From assembly GCA_002780065.1 (NCBI GenBank), contig PEWQ01000159.1:1-19227 (forward strand): a DNA stretch of 19,227 nucleotides, read 5' to 3'. The DNA is from Candidatus Hydrogenedentes bacterium CG07_land_8_20_14_0_80_42_17. Its GTDB lineage: Bacteria > UBA8481. The notes below the pieces were generated by a model. The model saw nothing but the letters and a program-made list of their open reading frames with translations. It was not told the origin of the DNA and did no database searches. A program made the translations under genes and the position numbers. Positions within the stretch are counted from its first letter, which is position 1. Each line of letters starts with the position of its first letter. Below, one piece after another: positions 9,506 to 13,415 of this stretch.

Positions 9506-9536
9506 ATACACTTTATTTTGTGTTTATAAAGCTATT
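9501..9536. terminator. Possible bidirectional terminator between convergent genes
   Basis: The 26-bp convergent gap is AT-rich and can pair as CTTTAT (9511-9516) with ATAAAG (9526-9531). This is extended, with a one-sided bulge, by AATAG (9501-9505) with CTATT (9532-9536). The stem is weak and AT-only at its core, so this is tentative. Confidence 0.25.
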
Positions 9537-9942
9537 CAGATAGTGCTTTTCTAACCACATCTAATTTTTGAAATAGCAGTTGGCAAGTCTTCAATATTCT
9601 TTCGGTGGCATCAACATAATTATCAGTATTCACTTTCGAATATTGCACCTCCGGCGTAAATGATTGAGGATAACGCGAATCAATGTATACAGCGTCAAGC
9701 AACGCCAAGTCGGATTGCTCAAAATGTTTTGAGCTGAAGAGAAAGTCAGACCATATCTTTGACAGGCTATGACTTGGATCCTTGAGACGACGCCAATCGT
9801 GACCGAGAGATAGAAGAAGCGACTTCATTGCGAGTTCTGCAGACTGATGGCAAAGAAATACGCACCATTCATTTTCGGTCGACTTTAGTTTTTTGGCTAC
9901 GCTCAGATTCCGCACTGCTTGAGTGAGAAATCTTTGGTTCAC
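9532..9942 (-). CDS. HEPN domain protein
   Basis: This all-helical protein is about 136 residues long and resembles the PF05168-type HEPN domain. Its features are an N-terminal helix (FLTQAVRNLSVAKKL), a second helix with the pattern FLCHQSAELAMKSLLLSLGH, an HSLSKIWSDF block, and the DSRYPQSF signature before the last helix. HEPN proteins are RNases, toxins or nucleotidyltransferase partners, but many PF05168 members lack the catalytic R-x4-6-H motif. I see no such motif in the usual position after the third helix. I prefer the GTG at 9942, which gives a 4-bp GTGA overlap with the winged-helix stop codon. An ATG at 9981 would add 13 residues and overlap by 43 bp. Tight coupling suggests the two proteins work together. 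Confidence 0.72.
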   Translation of the reverse strand: MNQRFLTQAVRNLSVAKKLKSTENEWCVFLCHQSAELAMKSLLLSLGHDWRRLKDPSHSLSKIWSDFLFSSKHFEQSDLALLDAVYIDSRYPQSFTPEVQYSKVNTDNYVDATERILKTCQLLFQKLDVVRKALSE

Positions 9943-10232
9943 AGCTTGCGAACCATCTGTTCGACTTTCTCTACGCCGCATGAGGAGATTCGATAAAAAT
10001 CGCCAGCTGCCGATATGTGTTCCACAAGTTTCTCGGCGACAAGTCTATTCAATATATCCTCAACCTTTCGTACTGCGATATCGAGGTCATCAGCGATACG
10101 CACGGCCAAGGTTGGCGTATCCTCATAATCTAATGGATTGACATGAGAATCATAAAGATACTTAAAGACTAAGTCCTTTTCAATGTCCCACATGTTATCT
10201 GTCAGACGACCTAAAACAGTACTTTTAACCAT
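9939..10232 (-). CDS. Winged helix-turn-helix protein, 97 aa
   Basis: This is a single small winged-helix domain. Residues about 17-30 form a first helix (DIEKDLVFKYLYDSH). Residues about 40-72 hold the helix-turn-helix (TLAVRIADDLDIAVRKVEDI, then LNRLVAEKLVEHI), followed by a beta wing (GDFYRISSCG) and a C-terminal helix. It probably binds DNA, perhaps regulating its own pair; RNA or protein binding is also possible. It overlaps the HEPN gene by 4 bp. The start has no Shine-Dalgarno sequence, and a -10-like GATAAT ends 8 nt before the ATG, so the transcript may be leaderless. The arrangement of a small DNA-binding protein followed by HEPN resembles toxin-antitoxin gene organisation, but this pairing is not one I can name. 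Confidence 0.7.
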   Translation of the reverse strand: MVKSTVLGRLTDNMWDIEKDLVFKYLYDSHVNPLDYEDTPTLAVRIADDLDIAVRKVEDILNRLVAEKLVEHISAAGDFYRISSCGVEKVEQMVRKL

Positions 10233-10315: not shown

Positions 10316-11572
10316 TTAAATCGTTCCTGGCGGAAGAAATCCTGCTTCAAATCCATCATTCGTGAGCCTAATCGAACCGAACTGAATAATACTGACATTT
10401 TTCAGAGATTGATGTGGAATCGGCGTCCAGACCTCTGCAATGCGCTTTTCCCATTTTAGCATTTGTATTACACCAAGCCCCATACAATCTCCGTTTTGAT
10501 TGAGCAATCCGACTAAAGCTCCTACAGCATGATGACATGGCACCCAGAAAATTTTTCCTGGTAATGCCGCCATTACTTTTGCTTTTGCTTCACCTGAGAT
10601 ATCGCTCTTATGCACGACAAGATGCCCTTCCCATGCAGATAACTTTTCAATATGGACTACTTCTTTGCCGATTCCTTTCGGCCTTTCAACAGATTTCCCG
10701 GTTCCGTAATATGCTCCCATTGTAGCAAAGGAACTTATTTCTATAAGTTTTGCTTTCGACATGTAAGCGCGCGAAACTTCTTCTCGGAGAGATTTACGCA
10801 CATCGGGCGATGTGAACGTTGCCGACTTGGATACGGTTAGTCTGAAAACATTTTTTTCAGGAATATGCTTAACCAAATGTTCTAATTCGTCGGTGCGTTG
10901 AAGCAGCACTACAAGCCCCGGAGGACATAACTCCATTTTTGCAATCTTGTATGCTCTTCCTCCGTCGCTTTGCACCCAACCTGAAGTGTTGATGAGAAGC
11001 ACGTCGGAATTTTCAAATGCGTTTCTGGTCATTCTAGCGAACGCCGATAATGCGACAGTAAAATGCATGCCAGGCGAATGACCTCCGATGAAAGCCATCG
11101 CATCGACAGGAGCTTGCGGCAAAAATGCAACAGGTTTTTTTACATAAGAGAGTCCGAAAGTTCCTGGCGGCCCTATATCCGATTGACCTGTATCACAATC
11201 AAGAATTGCCGTGCTCAATCCCGCTCGAAAAAGTCTGTTGCCCATATACGTAGTAAAAAAAGATTTTCCGGTGTCCATTTCTCCGATTACAAAAATACTT
11301 TTCGGACGCTCCTTAAGAATCTTTTCAACTAGAATATCCCAAGAACGTGGAATTGTTCGATACGGTATGGTCTCTACATGACCTTCTTCTGCGGAGAGAT
11401 TAATTTGTGAAGAAGTTACTCCCTCGATAGGAATTTTTTTGCCCTTCGGAATAAAAATTCGGTCATGACTTTTTAGAAGCGCTCCGACAGCTTCACATTC
11501 GCCGGAGACGAGCTCGATACGAGCAGGACCGTCGACAAGAATAATCTGTTCTTTCATCAAATCGAGTTTCAT
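10316..11572 (-). CDS. Clp1/Grc3-family polynucleotide 5'-hydroxyl kinase (COG1341)
   Basis: This 418-residue P-loop kinase is predicted to transfer the gamma-phosphate of ATP to the 5'-OH of RNA or DNA. The N-terminal beta-rich domain (1-75) is followed by the Clp1_P-type kinase core. The core has the Walker A motif GEMDTGKS (97-104), the family signature LDCDTGQSDIGPPGTFGL (124-141) and the lid-region block INTSGWVQSDGGRAYKIAK (194-212). The C-terminal domain (about 325-418) has the GLGVIQML and IQFGSIRL strands seen in Clp1/Grc3/NOL9. The family is standard in archaea and eukaryotes (tRNA splicing, rRNA processing) and only patchy in bacteria. Its start overlaps the 155-aa gene's stop codon by 4 bp (ATGA), and a DHH nuclease heads the operon. 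All key residues appear present, so it is probably active. Confidence 0.9.
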   Translation of the reverse strand: MKLDLMKEQIILVDGPARIELVSGECEAVGALLKSHDRIFIPKGKKIPIEGVTSSQINLSAEEGHVETIPYRTIPRSWDILVEKILKERPKSIFVIGEMDTGKSFFTTYMGNRLFRAGLSTAILDCDTGQSDIGPPGTFGLSYVKKPVAFLPQAPVDAMAFIGGHSPGMHFTVALSAFARMTRNAFENSDVLLINTSGWVQSDGGRAYKIAKMELCPPGLVVLLQRTDELEHLVKHIPEKNVFRLTVSKSATFTSPDVRKSLREEVSRAYMSKAKLIEISSFATMGAYYGTGKSVERPKGIGKEVVHIEKLSAWEGHLVVHKSDISGEAKAKVMAALPGKIFWVPCHHAVGALVGLLNQNGDCMGLGVIQMLKWEKRIAEVWTPIPHQSLKNVSIIQFGSIRLTNDGFEAGFLPPGTI

Positions 11573-12036
11573 CGTCCGCTCCTCTGCCGCTTTACAAAAG
11601 ATGGTTTAACTTTTTCAGATACAGTTTTGCTCATCTTTACTTTTTCAGAAAAAACAAGTGACGGCCATGTTCTCTGCAGAGCATCATGACTTATTTTTGT
11701 GACCTTGCCTTCAGTTAATTTGAAGTCTTTCTGTTCAAATGATTCGCAGACTGTTTCAAGATAAATACCGGAATCGTCTTTCTTTGTGATTGCGCCTGCA
11801 AATGAGCGCCCATCTTTAGACCACGTTATAAAATCGCCGATGCGAAGATCTTCATGAGTTGCTTCTTGCTTCGATGATTTTCCAACTAATGCTACGAGAC
11901 CTGGATAAAGAGAAATATTTCTGTGTATATTGAGCAACTCTTTAATCATTGCTATAGTCTCGAAAGGATTTTTTCCTTCGACAATGCGCTCTATTTCCGA
12001 AATCAAACCTGCGTAATCAGTTTCTGCAAAAGTCAT
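11569..12036 (-). CDS. Unknown protein, 155 aa, possible Sm/SH3-like core with basic tail
   Basis: No family is recognised with certainty. The N-terminal 40 residues are helical and acidic (DYAGLISEIERIVEG). The central stretch (about 65-120) is beta-rich, with DLRIGDFITWSKDGRSFAGA (64-83) followed by TKKDDSGIYLE. This pattern of dG--f-G-I---d--gi-le recalls Sm/LSm or SH3-like barrels. The tail (about 125-155) is Lys/Arg-rich (KVKPSFVKRQRSGR) and could bind nucleic acid. The gene overlaps both neighbours by 4 bp: its ATG overlaps the DHH gene's stop codon and its stop codon overlaps the kinase ATG. The three proteins are therefore probably made in matched amounts. A role as RNA-binding adaptor between nuclease and kinase is a hypothesis. 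Confidence 0.75.
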   Translation of the reverse strand: MTFAETDYAGLISEIERIVEGKNPFETIAMIKELLNIHRNISLYPGLVALVGKSSKQEATHEDLRIGDFITWSKDGRSFAGAITKKDDSGIYLETVCESFEQKDFKLTEGKVTKISHDALQRTWPSLVFSEKVKMSKTVSEKVKPSFVKRQRSGR

Positions 12037-13415
12037 GATGCAATCCCCAATTCAACAGCGCGCTTCTTATCTGAGTCTGTCCAAGAGGAACGTTTCGCTT
12101 CAAGTTCGAGAAGTTCGCGCAGCAACGAAATTCCATGATACAGAGCTATTCCGTGCGGAACGCCGGCATTTCTTGTTCTGCATTCTCCTGCTCGCGGATG
12201 ACCTCCTCCGGAAATTTCTGTTGGATTGTTGAATACTTCATTCAATCGCGCGGCTGAAGCCTGACATATCTTTCCGACATGAATTTTGTCGCTCGTGGCT
12301 CGAAGAGAAAAATGCGTTCCGAGTTTTCCCTGACTTGTGATTTCAGTATTGATCATGAAGATCATGCCTTCTCCGTCTGCGTTCTTTTTGACCTTTTCAG
12401 CAAGAGCAATGCCGCCAACCATCGGGATTAGTGGAAGCTTGTCTGAAACGAAGAGATATATTGTTGCGTCGTTAGCTCTGCCAATGGGAACAGCAGTCTC
12501 CATCTTCTTCACTACATCGGACCAGTTGCGTTTGAAAAGATCATAAGCTCTCTGCCATGCTTCTCTTTTGTCGATCAGCTTCATAAAATCTTCGAGTGAA
12601 TTTACTTTTTTAAGTTTGTCAATTTTTGTATTGAGCTTCAGATTCTCTTCAAAGCAGAGCAGAGGCTGATTCAGTTTTCCGAGTATCGGGTCATCAGGAT
12701 AGAAATATTGGAATGCGCCGCCGGTGACCGCAAAATATACCTCCGCGATTTGAGAAAGCAGAGTTGTTTTTTCGCGCTGAGCAGTGTCGAATAAAGTTGC
12801 AGTGCCCGGAATTTCTTTAAAAAGATTTTCCCATCGAGGTTTAATTTCTTCGATCCATGGCTTTACAAAATCTGCGCCGCCGAAATTTCCTGACGTAGGG
12901 TCTATTGCAAAGTCGGCTTTCAAACCTATCAACGCGTCGAATTCATCGATCGGCTCGACGCATCCGAGTAAAGTGGAAACGATTAAGCACAAGTAAGAAC
13001 CGGAACAGTATGAACGCTTTGTGAGCAAAGAGTTAAAGAGAGTGGCTTTTTTGATTTCACCCATAAGAAAATGGTGATCGATTGCAAGCGTATCGAGTCC
13101 CATTTCGACAATTTTGTCCAGCCCGTCTTTTGAACCTTTATCAACCGAAACGAAGAGGTCGAAGGGACCATACTTCGATTCAGCTTCGATTTCGTAAGGG
13201 AAAACATCGAAGCCTTCTGGGAAAACAGTGTGAACAAAAGATGCTCCTTTCTTTTCAAGTACTCGTTTGATGATTGAAGCTGATGAAGTTCCGTCCGGAT
13301 CATCATGCCCGAAGAGAAGCACGCGTTTTCCCTTCACGTCTTCTAATTTCTTCAGAAGATTTTTAAGCCCCTCCGATTCTTTTAATTCCCGATCGCAAAT
13401 TTCTTTAAAATTCAC
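12033..13415 (-). CDS. DHH-family phosphoesterase / RecJ-like nuclease
   Basis: This 460-residue manganese-type phosphoesterase has the DHH motifs: GHDDPDG (His37, Asp39, Asp41), Asp92 in VSVDKG, the signature IDHH (Asp113-His114-His115), KADFAIDP, and the DHHA1 motif GGGHPRAG (403-410). It is shorter than classical bacterial RecJ and closer in build to archaeal RecJ-like nucleases. Relatives cut single-stranded DNA or RNA 5'-to-3', or degrade nano-oligonucleotides and cyclic dinucleotides; the exact substrate is open. The GTG start has AAAGGA with about 6-nt spacing and is the first gene of a three-gene operon with overlapping ends. A leader of about 120 nt with three hairpins precedes it. 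Downstream partners (possible Sm-like protein and 5'-OH kinase) point to processing of nucleic-acid ends. Confidence 0.88.
   Translation of the reverse strand: MNFKEICDRELKESEGLKNLLKKLEDVKGKRVLLFGHDDPDGTSSASIIKRVLEKKGASFVHTVFPEGFDVFPYEIEAESKYGPFDLFVSVDKGSKDGLDKIVEMGLDTLAIDHHFLMGEIKKATLFNSLLTKRSYCSGSYLCLIVSTLLGCVEPIDEFDALIGLKADFAIDPTSGNFGGADFVKPWIEEIKPRWENLFKEIPGTATLFDTAQREKTTLLSQIAEVYFAVTGGAFQYFYPDDPILGKLNQPLLCFEENLKLNTKIDKLKKVNSLEDFMKLIDKREAWQRAYDLFKRNWSDVVKKMETAVPIGRANDATIYLFVSDKLPLIPMVGGIALAEKVKKNADGEGMIFMINTEITSQGKLGTHFSLRATSDKIHVGKICQASAARLNEVFNNPTEISGGGHPRAGECRTRNAGVPHGIALYHGISLLRELLELEAKRSSWTDSDKKRAVELGIAS

Follow-up and report, generated by a model that had tools for sequence, protein, structure and literature searches.

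What holds the genes for a Clp1-type kinase, a small protein and a DHH phosphoesterase together in one compact bacterial operon? The question is raised by a 19,227-nucleotide stretch of DNA (positions 1–19,227 of contig PEWQ01000159.1, assembly GCA_002780065.1) from Candidatus Hydrogenedentes bacterium CG07_land_8_20_14_0_80_42_17, referred to here as the window. Three genes lie on its minus strand: DHH (positions 12033–13415), which has a GTG start and encodes a stand-alone DHH/DHHA1 phosphoesterase of 460 amino acids (aa) with a Pfam DHH domain; ORF155 (11569–12036), which encodes a 155-aa protein; and CLP1 (10316–11572), which encodes a putative Clp1/NOL9-type kinase of 418 aa with a Pfam CLP1_P domain. 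The open reading frames lie exactly where a preliminary description, made from the sequence alone, had placed them, with a 4-bp overlap at both the DHH/ORF155 and the ORF155/CLP1 junction. The set is conserved in several poorly known phyla, where it mostly lies in the company of nucleoside-recycling genes; this setting suggests a hitherto undescribed way of readying nucleic-acid fragments for complete recycling.

Conservation of the three genes

The order DHH-ORF155-CLP1 is not a chance feature of a single genome. The phylum of the window is represented by two genomes, and the second (G001; RFFU01000081, deposited as Hydrogenedentota J006) carries the three genes in the same order with 42, 39, and 46% identity, respectively. 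When the CLP1 alignment was run against GTDB species contigs, 33 loci emerged; their deposited names are Riflebacteria/Ozemobacter, Lindowbacteria, Elusimicrobia, Mcinerneyibacteriota, Caldiserica, Spirochaetes, Chloroflexi, and unnamed bacteria, although a number of these bins probably carry the wrong label. In 30 of the 33 loci, namely all 30 full-length-subfamily loci able to show it, ORF155 is the gene immediately upstream of CLP1; one of the three exceptions is a contig that starts at CLP1 (L041), and the other two (L053 and L059) have divergent CLP1s. No more than 20 nt separate the two genes in 25 of these 30 loci. A gene of the DHH subfamily is the direct neighbour of ORF155 in 14 loci; in six it is found on the same strand, 3.0–4.7 kb upstream; and 27 of the 33 genomes have one somewhere. 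In three genomes of another family (f107), DHH again adjoins ORF155, which is more divergent there. The preliminary description had let its three-gene system stand or fall with conservation of this order in related genomes; the order is kept there, far beyond chance.

Co-occurrence follows the same pattern in a phylogenetic profile of 386 genomes from 327 genera (cut-offs of E<1e-100 for DHH and CLP1 and E<1e-15 for ORF155). Counting the full-length subfamilies, DHH was found in 16 genomes, ORF155 in 16, and CLP1 in 17, with all three in 14; the partial carriers are two genomes with CLP1 and ORF155 (G166 and G345), one with CLP1 only (G242), and two with DHH only (G105 and G376), while ORF155 without CLP1 occurs in none of the 386. 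The Fisher p values are 5e-21 for DHH/CLP1 and 2e-27 for ORF155/CLP1, and 1e-13 by family label, all of which relatedness makes optimistic. Taken together, the profile and the gene order show that ORF155 and CLP1 behave as one unit, to which DHH is more loosely attached.

The predicted kinase and its candidate partner protein

CLP1 is classified here as a putative 5'-OH polynucleotide kinase of the long Clp1/NOL9 form. Its Pfam CLP1_P match covers residues 97–272 (E=8.9e-30; 104 bits against a cut-off of 26.6), with a weak match to NOL9_C (0.0032), and its best matches among PDB sequences are NOL9 (1.9e-15) and human Clp1 (6e-10). The subfamily profile aligns with human Clp1 over 17–274, N-terminal domain and lid included (6e-21). 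The long form comprises an N-terminal domain like that of eukaryotic Clp1 and a NOL9_C-like C-terminus. The active site is intact: the Walker A motif, DxDxGQ, the clasp TxGWV (Trp199), and lid residues R259 and R263 do not vary among 30 members; the active-site residues also align with those of human and Caenorhabditis elegans Clp1. The P-loop GEMDTGKS and the DCDTGQS signature that the preliminary description had pointed out are both present, and their catalytic letters are among those invariant in the 30 members. No relative of CLP1 was found in a search of viral contigs and plasmids, and PHROGs matched only general RecJ/DHH families and an unnamed CLP1-like family. To our knowledge, no role has been assigned to bacterial Clp1 proteins. 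PHP enzymes include 5'-3' exonucleases, and at one locus a short bacterial Clp1 gene is followed 13 nt on by a PHP-domain gene (L019:3990-5760). An association of short bacterial Clp1s with 5'-3' exonucleases was considered and dropped, the other neighbours being ArgJ, a peptidase, a dehydrogenase, and others.

ORF155 has no significant Pfam match, and a profile search of PDB sequences gave chance-level matches only. Its 31-member alignment has a conserved N-terminus (MTFxETDFP) and a conserved C-terminus (WPSLVF), and together with the gene order these point to a new protein family, a dedicated partner of CLP1 that would bind it. The structural model (pLDDT 77) has a helical N-terminal part and, at residues 60–102, a small beta sheet of Sm-like topology; this segment, a helix and three strands, resembles the first half of the Sm fold (VIA Z 4–4.5, rmsd 1.5–2.1 over 40–43 residues), of which a complete barrel has five strands and the Sm1 and Sm2 motifs. 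The preliminary description had raised the possibility of an Sm-like adaptor, and nearly all top structure matches are indeed Sm/LSm proteins, but the Foldseek scores against them are weak (E 0.3–1.5) and the likeness is confined to residues 60–102, which makes the Sm-like character of the modelled protein a weak lead.

The DHH protein

The DHH protein is predicted to be a RecJ catalytic core without the OB domain. Pfam DHH matches over residues 31–132 (E=4.8e-9) and DHHA1 at E=1.8e-4, below the Pfam cut-off, while RecJ_OB (PF17768) gives no match and the protein scores below the NCBIfam recJ cut-off (29.6 bits against 396.9 required). The catalytic motifs (H37-x-D39-x-D41-G, D92, D113-H114-H115, D168, S370-x-R372, and GGGH ending at H406) are invariant in 20–21 members; the preliminary description had called the DHH motifs intact, and HDDPDG, DHH, and GGGH are unchanged in every one of the 20–21 family members that cover them. 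The model (pLDDT 90) is closest by VIA to Staphylococcus aureus RecJ (Z 29.3, rmsd 3.0 over 352 residues), followed by Deinococcus radiodurans RecJ (Z 27.2), archaeal RecJs (Z 23–26), PAP phosphatase (Z 23), and nanoRNases and di-nucleotide phosphodiesterases (Z 17–20). In D. radiodurans RecJ, the 5'-phosphate pocket is formed by Arg109, Arg280, Ser371, and Arg373, with His397 (PMC4846377). Ser371/Arg373 and His397 correspond to S370/R372 and H406 of the DHH protein, all three of them invariant; the DHH-family profile alignment to RecJ is local and covers only the first ~190 residues (9–192), and this correspondence in motifs VI and VII was made by motif and by eye.

Salvage and competence genes around the module

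In other lineages, the neighbours of the module include genes for an MTAP/PNP-type phosphorylase, pyrimidine nucleoside phosphorylase (PYNP), adenosine deaminase (ADA), and cytidine deaminase (CDA), as well as a PfkB kinase, a small P-loop kinase with an AP_endonuc_2/epimerase-like TIM barrel, DUF3006, and RecJ. This linkage is observed directly, and in seven genomes with one ADA gene, that sole gene lies just upstream of the module, for which the chance expectation is 0.1–0.4% per genome. In Riflebacteria, ComEC, ComEA, and MBL protein genes lie upstream of the module and an anaerobic ribonucleotide reductase gene follows it. RecJ belongs to the module operon in Lindowbacteria and in G001, where a single run reads PNP-PYNP-RecJ-DUF3006-DHH-ORF155-CLP1. 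The window genome carries PNP-PYNP-RecJ-DUF3006 on a separate contig (C40), and the module of the window and these genes are therefore apparently the same operon, split in two. In the two genomes with DHH only, the operon reads TIM-kinase-DHH-PNP-PfkB-TIM-kinase-ADA-DUF3006, from which ORF155 and CLP1 are cleanly absent as a unit; at L036, ORF155 and CLP1 lie between ADA and DUF3006. In the genome with CLP1 only, a CLP1 of the long form that lacks ORF155 immediately follows two PNP-family genes (L171:6676-10004), and the salvage link thus holds even without ORF155. Short bacterial Clp1s are without such salvage context.

Several further features of these operons were recorded. The RecJ encoded at L027:5610-7919 and, in the C40 contig of the window genome, at L181:576-2804 has a DnaQ-like RNase_T exonuclease domain between DHH and DHHA1, and this RNase_T-bearing RecJ gene sits in a nucleoside phosphorylase operon. 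The small P-loop kinase and AP_endonuc_2/epimerase-like TIM-barrel genes recur as an adjacent pair (L036, L037, and L176-L178), which is duplicated in the salvage operons of one lineage. DUF3006 (PF11213) recurs in salvage operons at L027, L032, L035, L036, L038, L177, L178, and L181, including that of the window genome itself.

Within the window, an HTH-like gene (97 aa) and a HEPN gene (149 aa, PF05168) lie just downstream of CLP1 on the same strand (9532–10232) and overlap by 43 nt; the HEPN protein has RYP, and the pair was not seen at other CLP1 loci. A Las1-Grc3-like pairing of HEPN with CLP1 was dropped, as by eye the HEPN protein has no RxxxxH and the gene is absent at the other loci. 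Promoter and terminator scans gave no more signals than shuffled sequence gives.

Proposed function and alternatives

The three genes may constitute a module for nucleic-acid end processing and salvage, in which a 5'-OH oligonucleotide kinase feeds DHH-type exonucleases, a proposal for and against which the balance is about even. CLP1, with ORF155 as its obligate partner, would phosphorylate short fragments of RNA and/or DNA at their 5'-OH ends, a step whose chemistry is backed by analogy with the Clp1 of Thermus scotoductus (Ts-Clp1; PMC6777427). The phosphorylated fragments would then be good substrates for DHH-family exonucleases, namely the DHH protein of the module and, in several lineages, the RecJ of the same operon; the logic of this presumed hand-off has a parallel in Las1-Grc3-Rat1 (PMC10942766). 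These exonucleases, if they act from 5'-phosphorylated ends, would degrade the fragments to 5'-mononucleotides, and the products may pass to nucleoside phosphorylases, deaminases, and sugar kinases, whose genes adjoin the module in other lineages and lie at other places in the window genome. A more specific version is put forward tentatively and is rather doubtful: a machine parallel to Grc3-Rat1, made of a Clp1 kinase, a new obligate partner, and a DHH exonuclease, might rescue 5'-OH oligonucleotides, a dead end for 5'-phosphate-dependent exonucleases, and so allow scavenged nucleic acids to be recycled completely.

Several observations weigh against the salvage proposal. No salvage gene is adjacent to the module in the window itself, and the profile counts are not phylogenetically independent. 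DHH occurs without the kinase in two genomes and the kinase without this DHH in two or three, so the partnership is not obligate. No evident counterpart of RecJ Arg109 (in the profile alignment, 9–192) or of motif V Arg280 was found in the DHH protein, and its GGGH motif resembles that of NrnA/NrnB, of which clade-A NrnB is a 3'-5' enzyme (PMC12709177). MjRecJ2, which has the same core, is a 3'-5' exonuclease according to its PDB title, and NrnA is 5'-3' (PMC9757072); with related enzymes running in either direction and the match to the RecJ pocket partial, the polarity of the DHH protein is not readable from its sequence.

The same genes can be read in other ways. Cellular RNA maturation or repair, in which CLP1-ORF155 would phosphorylate the 5'-OH ends of cleaved rRNA, tRNA, or mRNA and DHH would trim them as in Las1-Grc3-Rat1, with the salvage genes as merely co-regulated housekeeping neighbours, is suggested by the closest characterised relatives, NOL9, Grc3, and Clp1, which act on these RNAs (PMC10942766), by the weakly Sm-like part of ORF155, and by the position of the window copy away from salvage genes. 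It is nevertheless unlikely: in several lineages the module is repeatedly linked to nucleoside catabolism genes, among them the sole ADA gene of seven genomes, and no ribosomal or tRNA-processing gene recurs beside it. If instead the neighbouring genes, which act on nucleosides, are taken as the guide, the CLP1 subfamily could be a small-molecule nucleoside 5'-kinase of salvage and DHH a small-molecule phosphodiesterase or nucleotidase, with no polynucleotide hand-off, as the fold matches of DHH to PAP phosphatase and di-nucleotide phosphodiesterases would allow. The invariance of the RNA-binding clasp Trp199 and lid Arg259/Arg263, the closer fold match of DHH to the polymer-degrading RecJ, and the presence in these operons of other small P-loop and PfkB kinases make this less likely still.

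A role at DNA ends in transformation or recombination, where the kinase would give incoming single strands back their 5'-phosphates so that RecJ-type resection could proceed, or act on recombination intermediates, would account for the ComEC-ComEA-MBL genes that immediately precede the module in the Riflebacteria clade and for RecJ in the operon of Lindowbacteria and the sister genome; the com linkage is confined to that one clade and nucleoside catabolism genes are the neighbours elsewhere, so this role seems improbable. The preliminary description had suggested end processing or RNA decay, with 5'-OH ends left by RNase or toxin cleavage, and the HEPN and HTH genes downstream of CLP1 would fit an anti-phage or toxin-response module that repairs or degrades toxin-cut RNA. 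Such a module is very improbable: the HEPN pair is not conserved and has no RxxxxH, PADLOC gave no match, no association with viruses, plasmids, or islands was seen, and the operon context is stable over several phyla. The nucleoside-salvage and competence context points to nucleic-acid recycling instead.

Comparison with known systems

The Clp1_P kinase domain is common to window CLP1 and other bacterial Clp1s, among which Ts-Clp1 is a proven 5'-OH kinase that prefers single-stranded RNA, in a paper that reports no gene-neighbourhood link (PMC6777427). The short bacterial Clp1s encountered here (~300 aa) have neither the N-terminal domain nor a consistent partner gene, whereas the window subfamily is ~415 aa long and is accompanied by ORF155 and DHH. 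The DHH protein shares the DHH and DHHA1 core and the motif VI Ser-x-Arg with COG0608-type RecJ and archaeal RecJ/GAN (VIA Z 24–29 over about 340–360 residues) and differs from them in having no OB domain, HxDxDG rather than DxDxDG as motif I, and no visible NAxGR motif V. Like NanoRNase B/NrnA, it stands alone as a DHH-DHHA1 protein, its GGGH and short tail being as in NrnB clades B and C (PMC12709177), and the motifs that mark NanoRNase B (COG2404), D113-H114-H115 and GGGH (G403-H406), are invariant in it. It appears to form a subfamily of its own, and the window genome encodes a separate 321-aa protein of NrnA size.

Among the papers searched, none was found that joins these genes or that names Clp1 together with RecJ, or a polynucleotide kinase together with RecJ and a nucleoside phosphorylase; the components are known, and the combination and the partner family are new. 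The conserved operon gives one bacterial Clp1 subfamily a partner family and a concrete, testable pathway, nucleic-acid salvage, which, if true, would also hint at how uncultured phyla such as Riflebacteria, Lindowbacteria, and the small phylum of the window obtain nutrients. The nearest likeness is to Grc3/NOL9 with Las1 and Rat1, NOL9 being the best PDB sequence match of CLP1. There, a proven Clp1-family kinase phosphorylates a 5'-OH end that is then degraded by a 5'-3' exonuclease (PMC10942766). Las1 is a HEPN endonuclease, to which no match of ORF155 was found, and Rat1 is an XRN-family exonuclease, whereas the module has a DHH protein as its predicted exonuclease and salvage as its context. 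If the salvage proposal is true, bacterial recycling relies, as eukaryotic rRNA processing is known to do, on 5'-phosphorylation to license decay by exonucleases.

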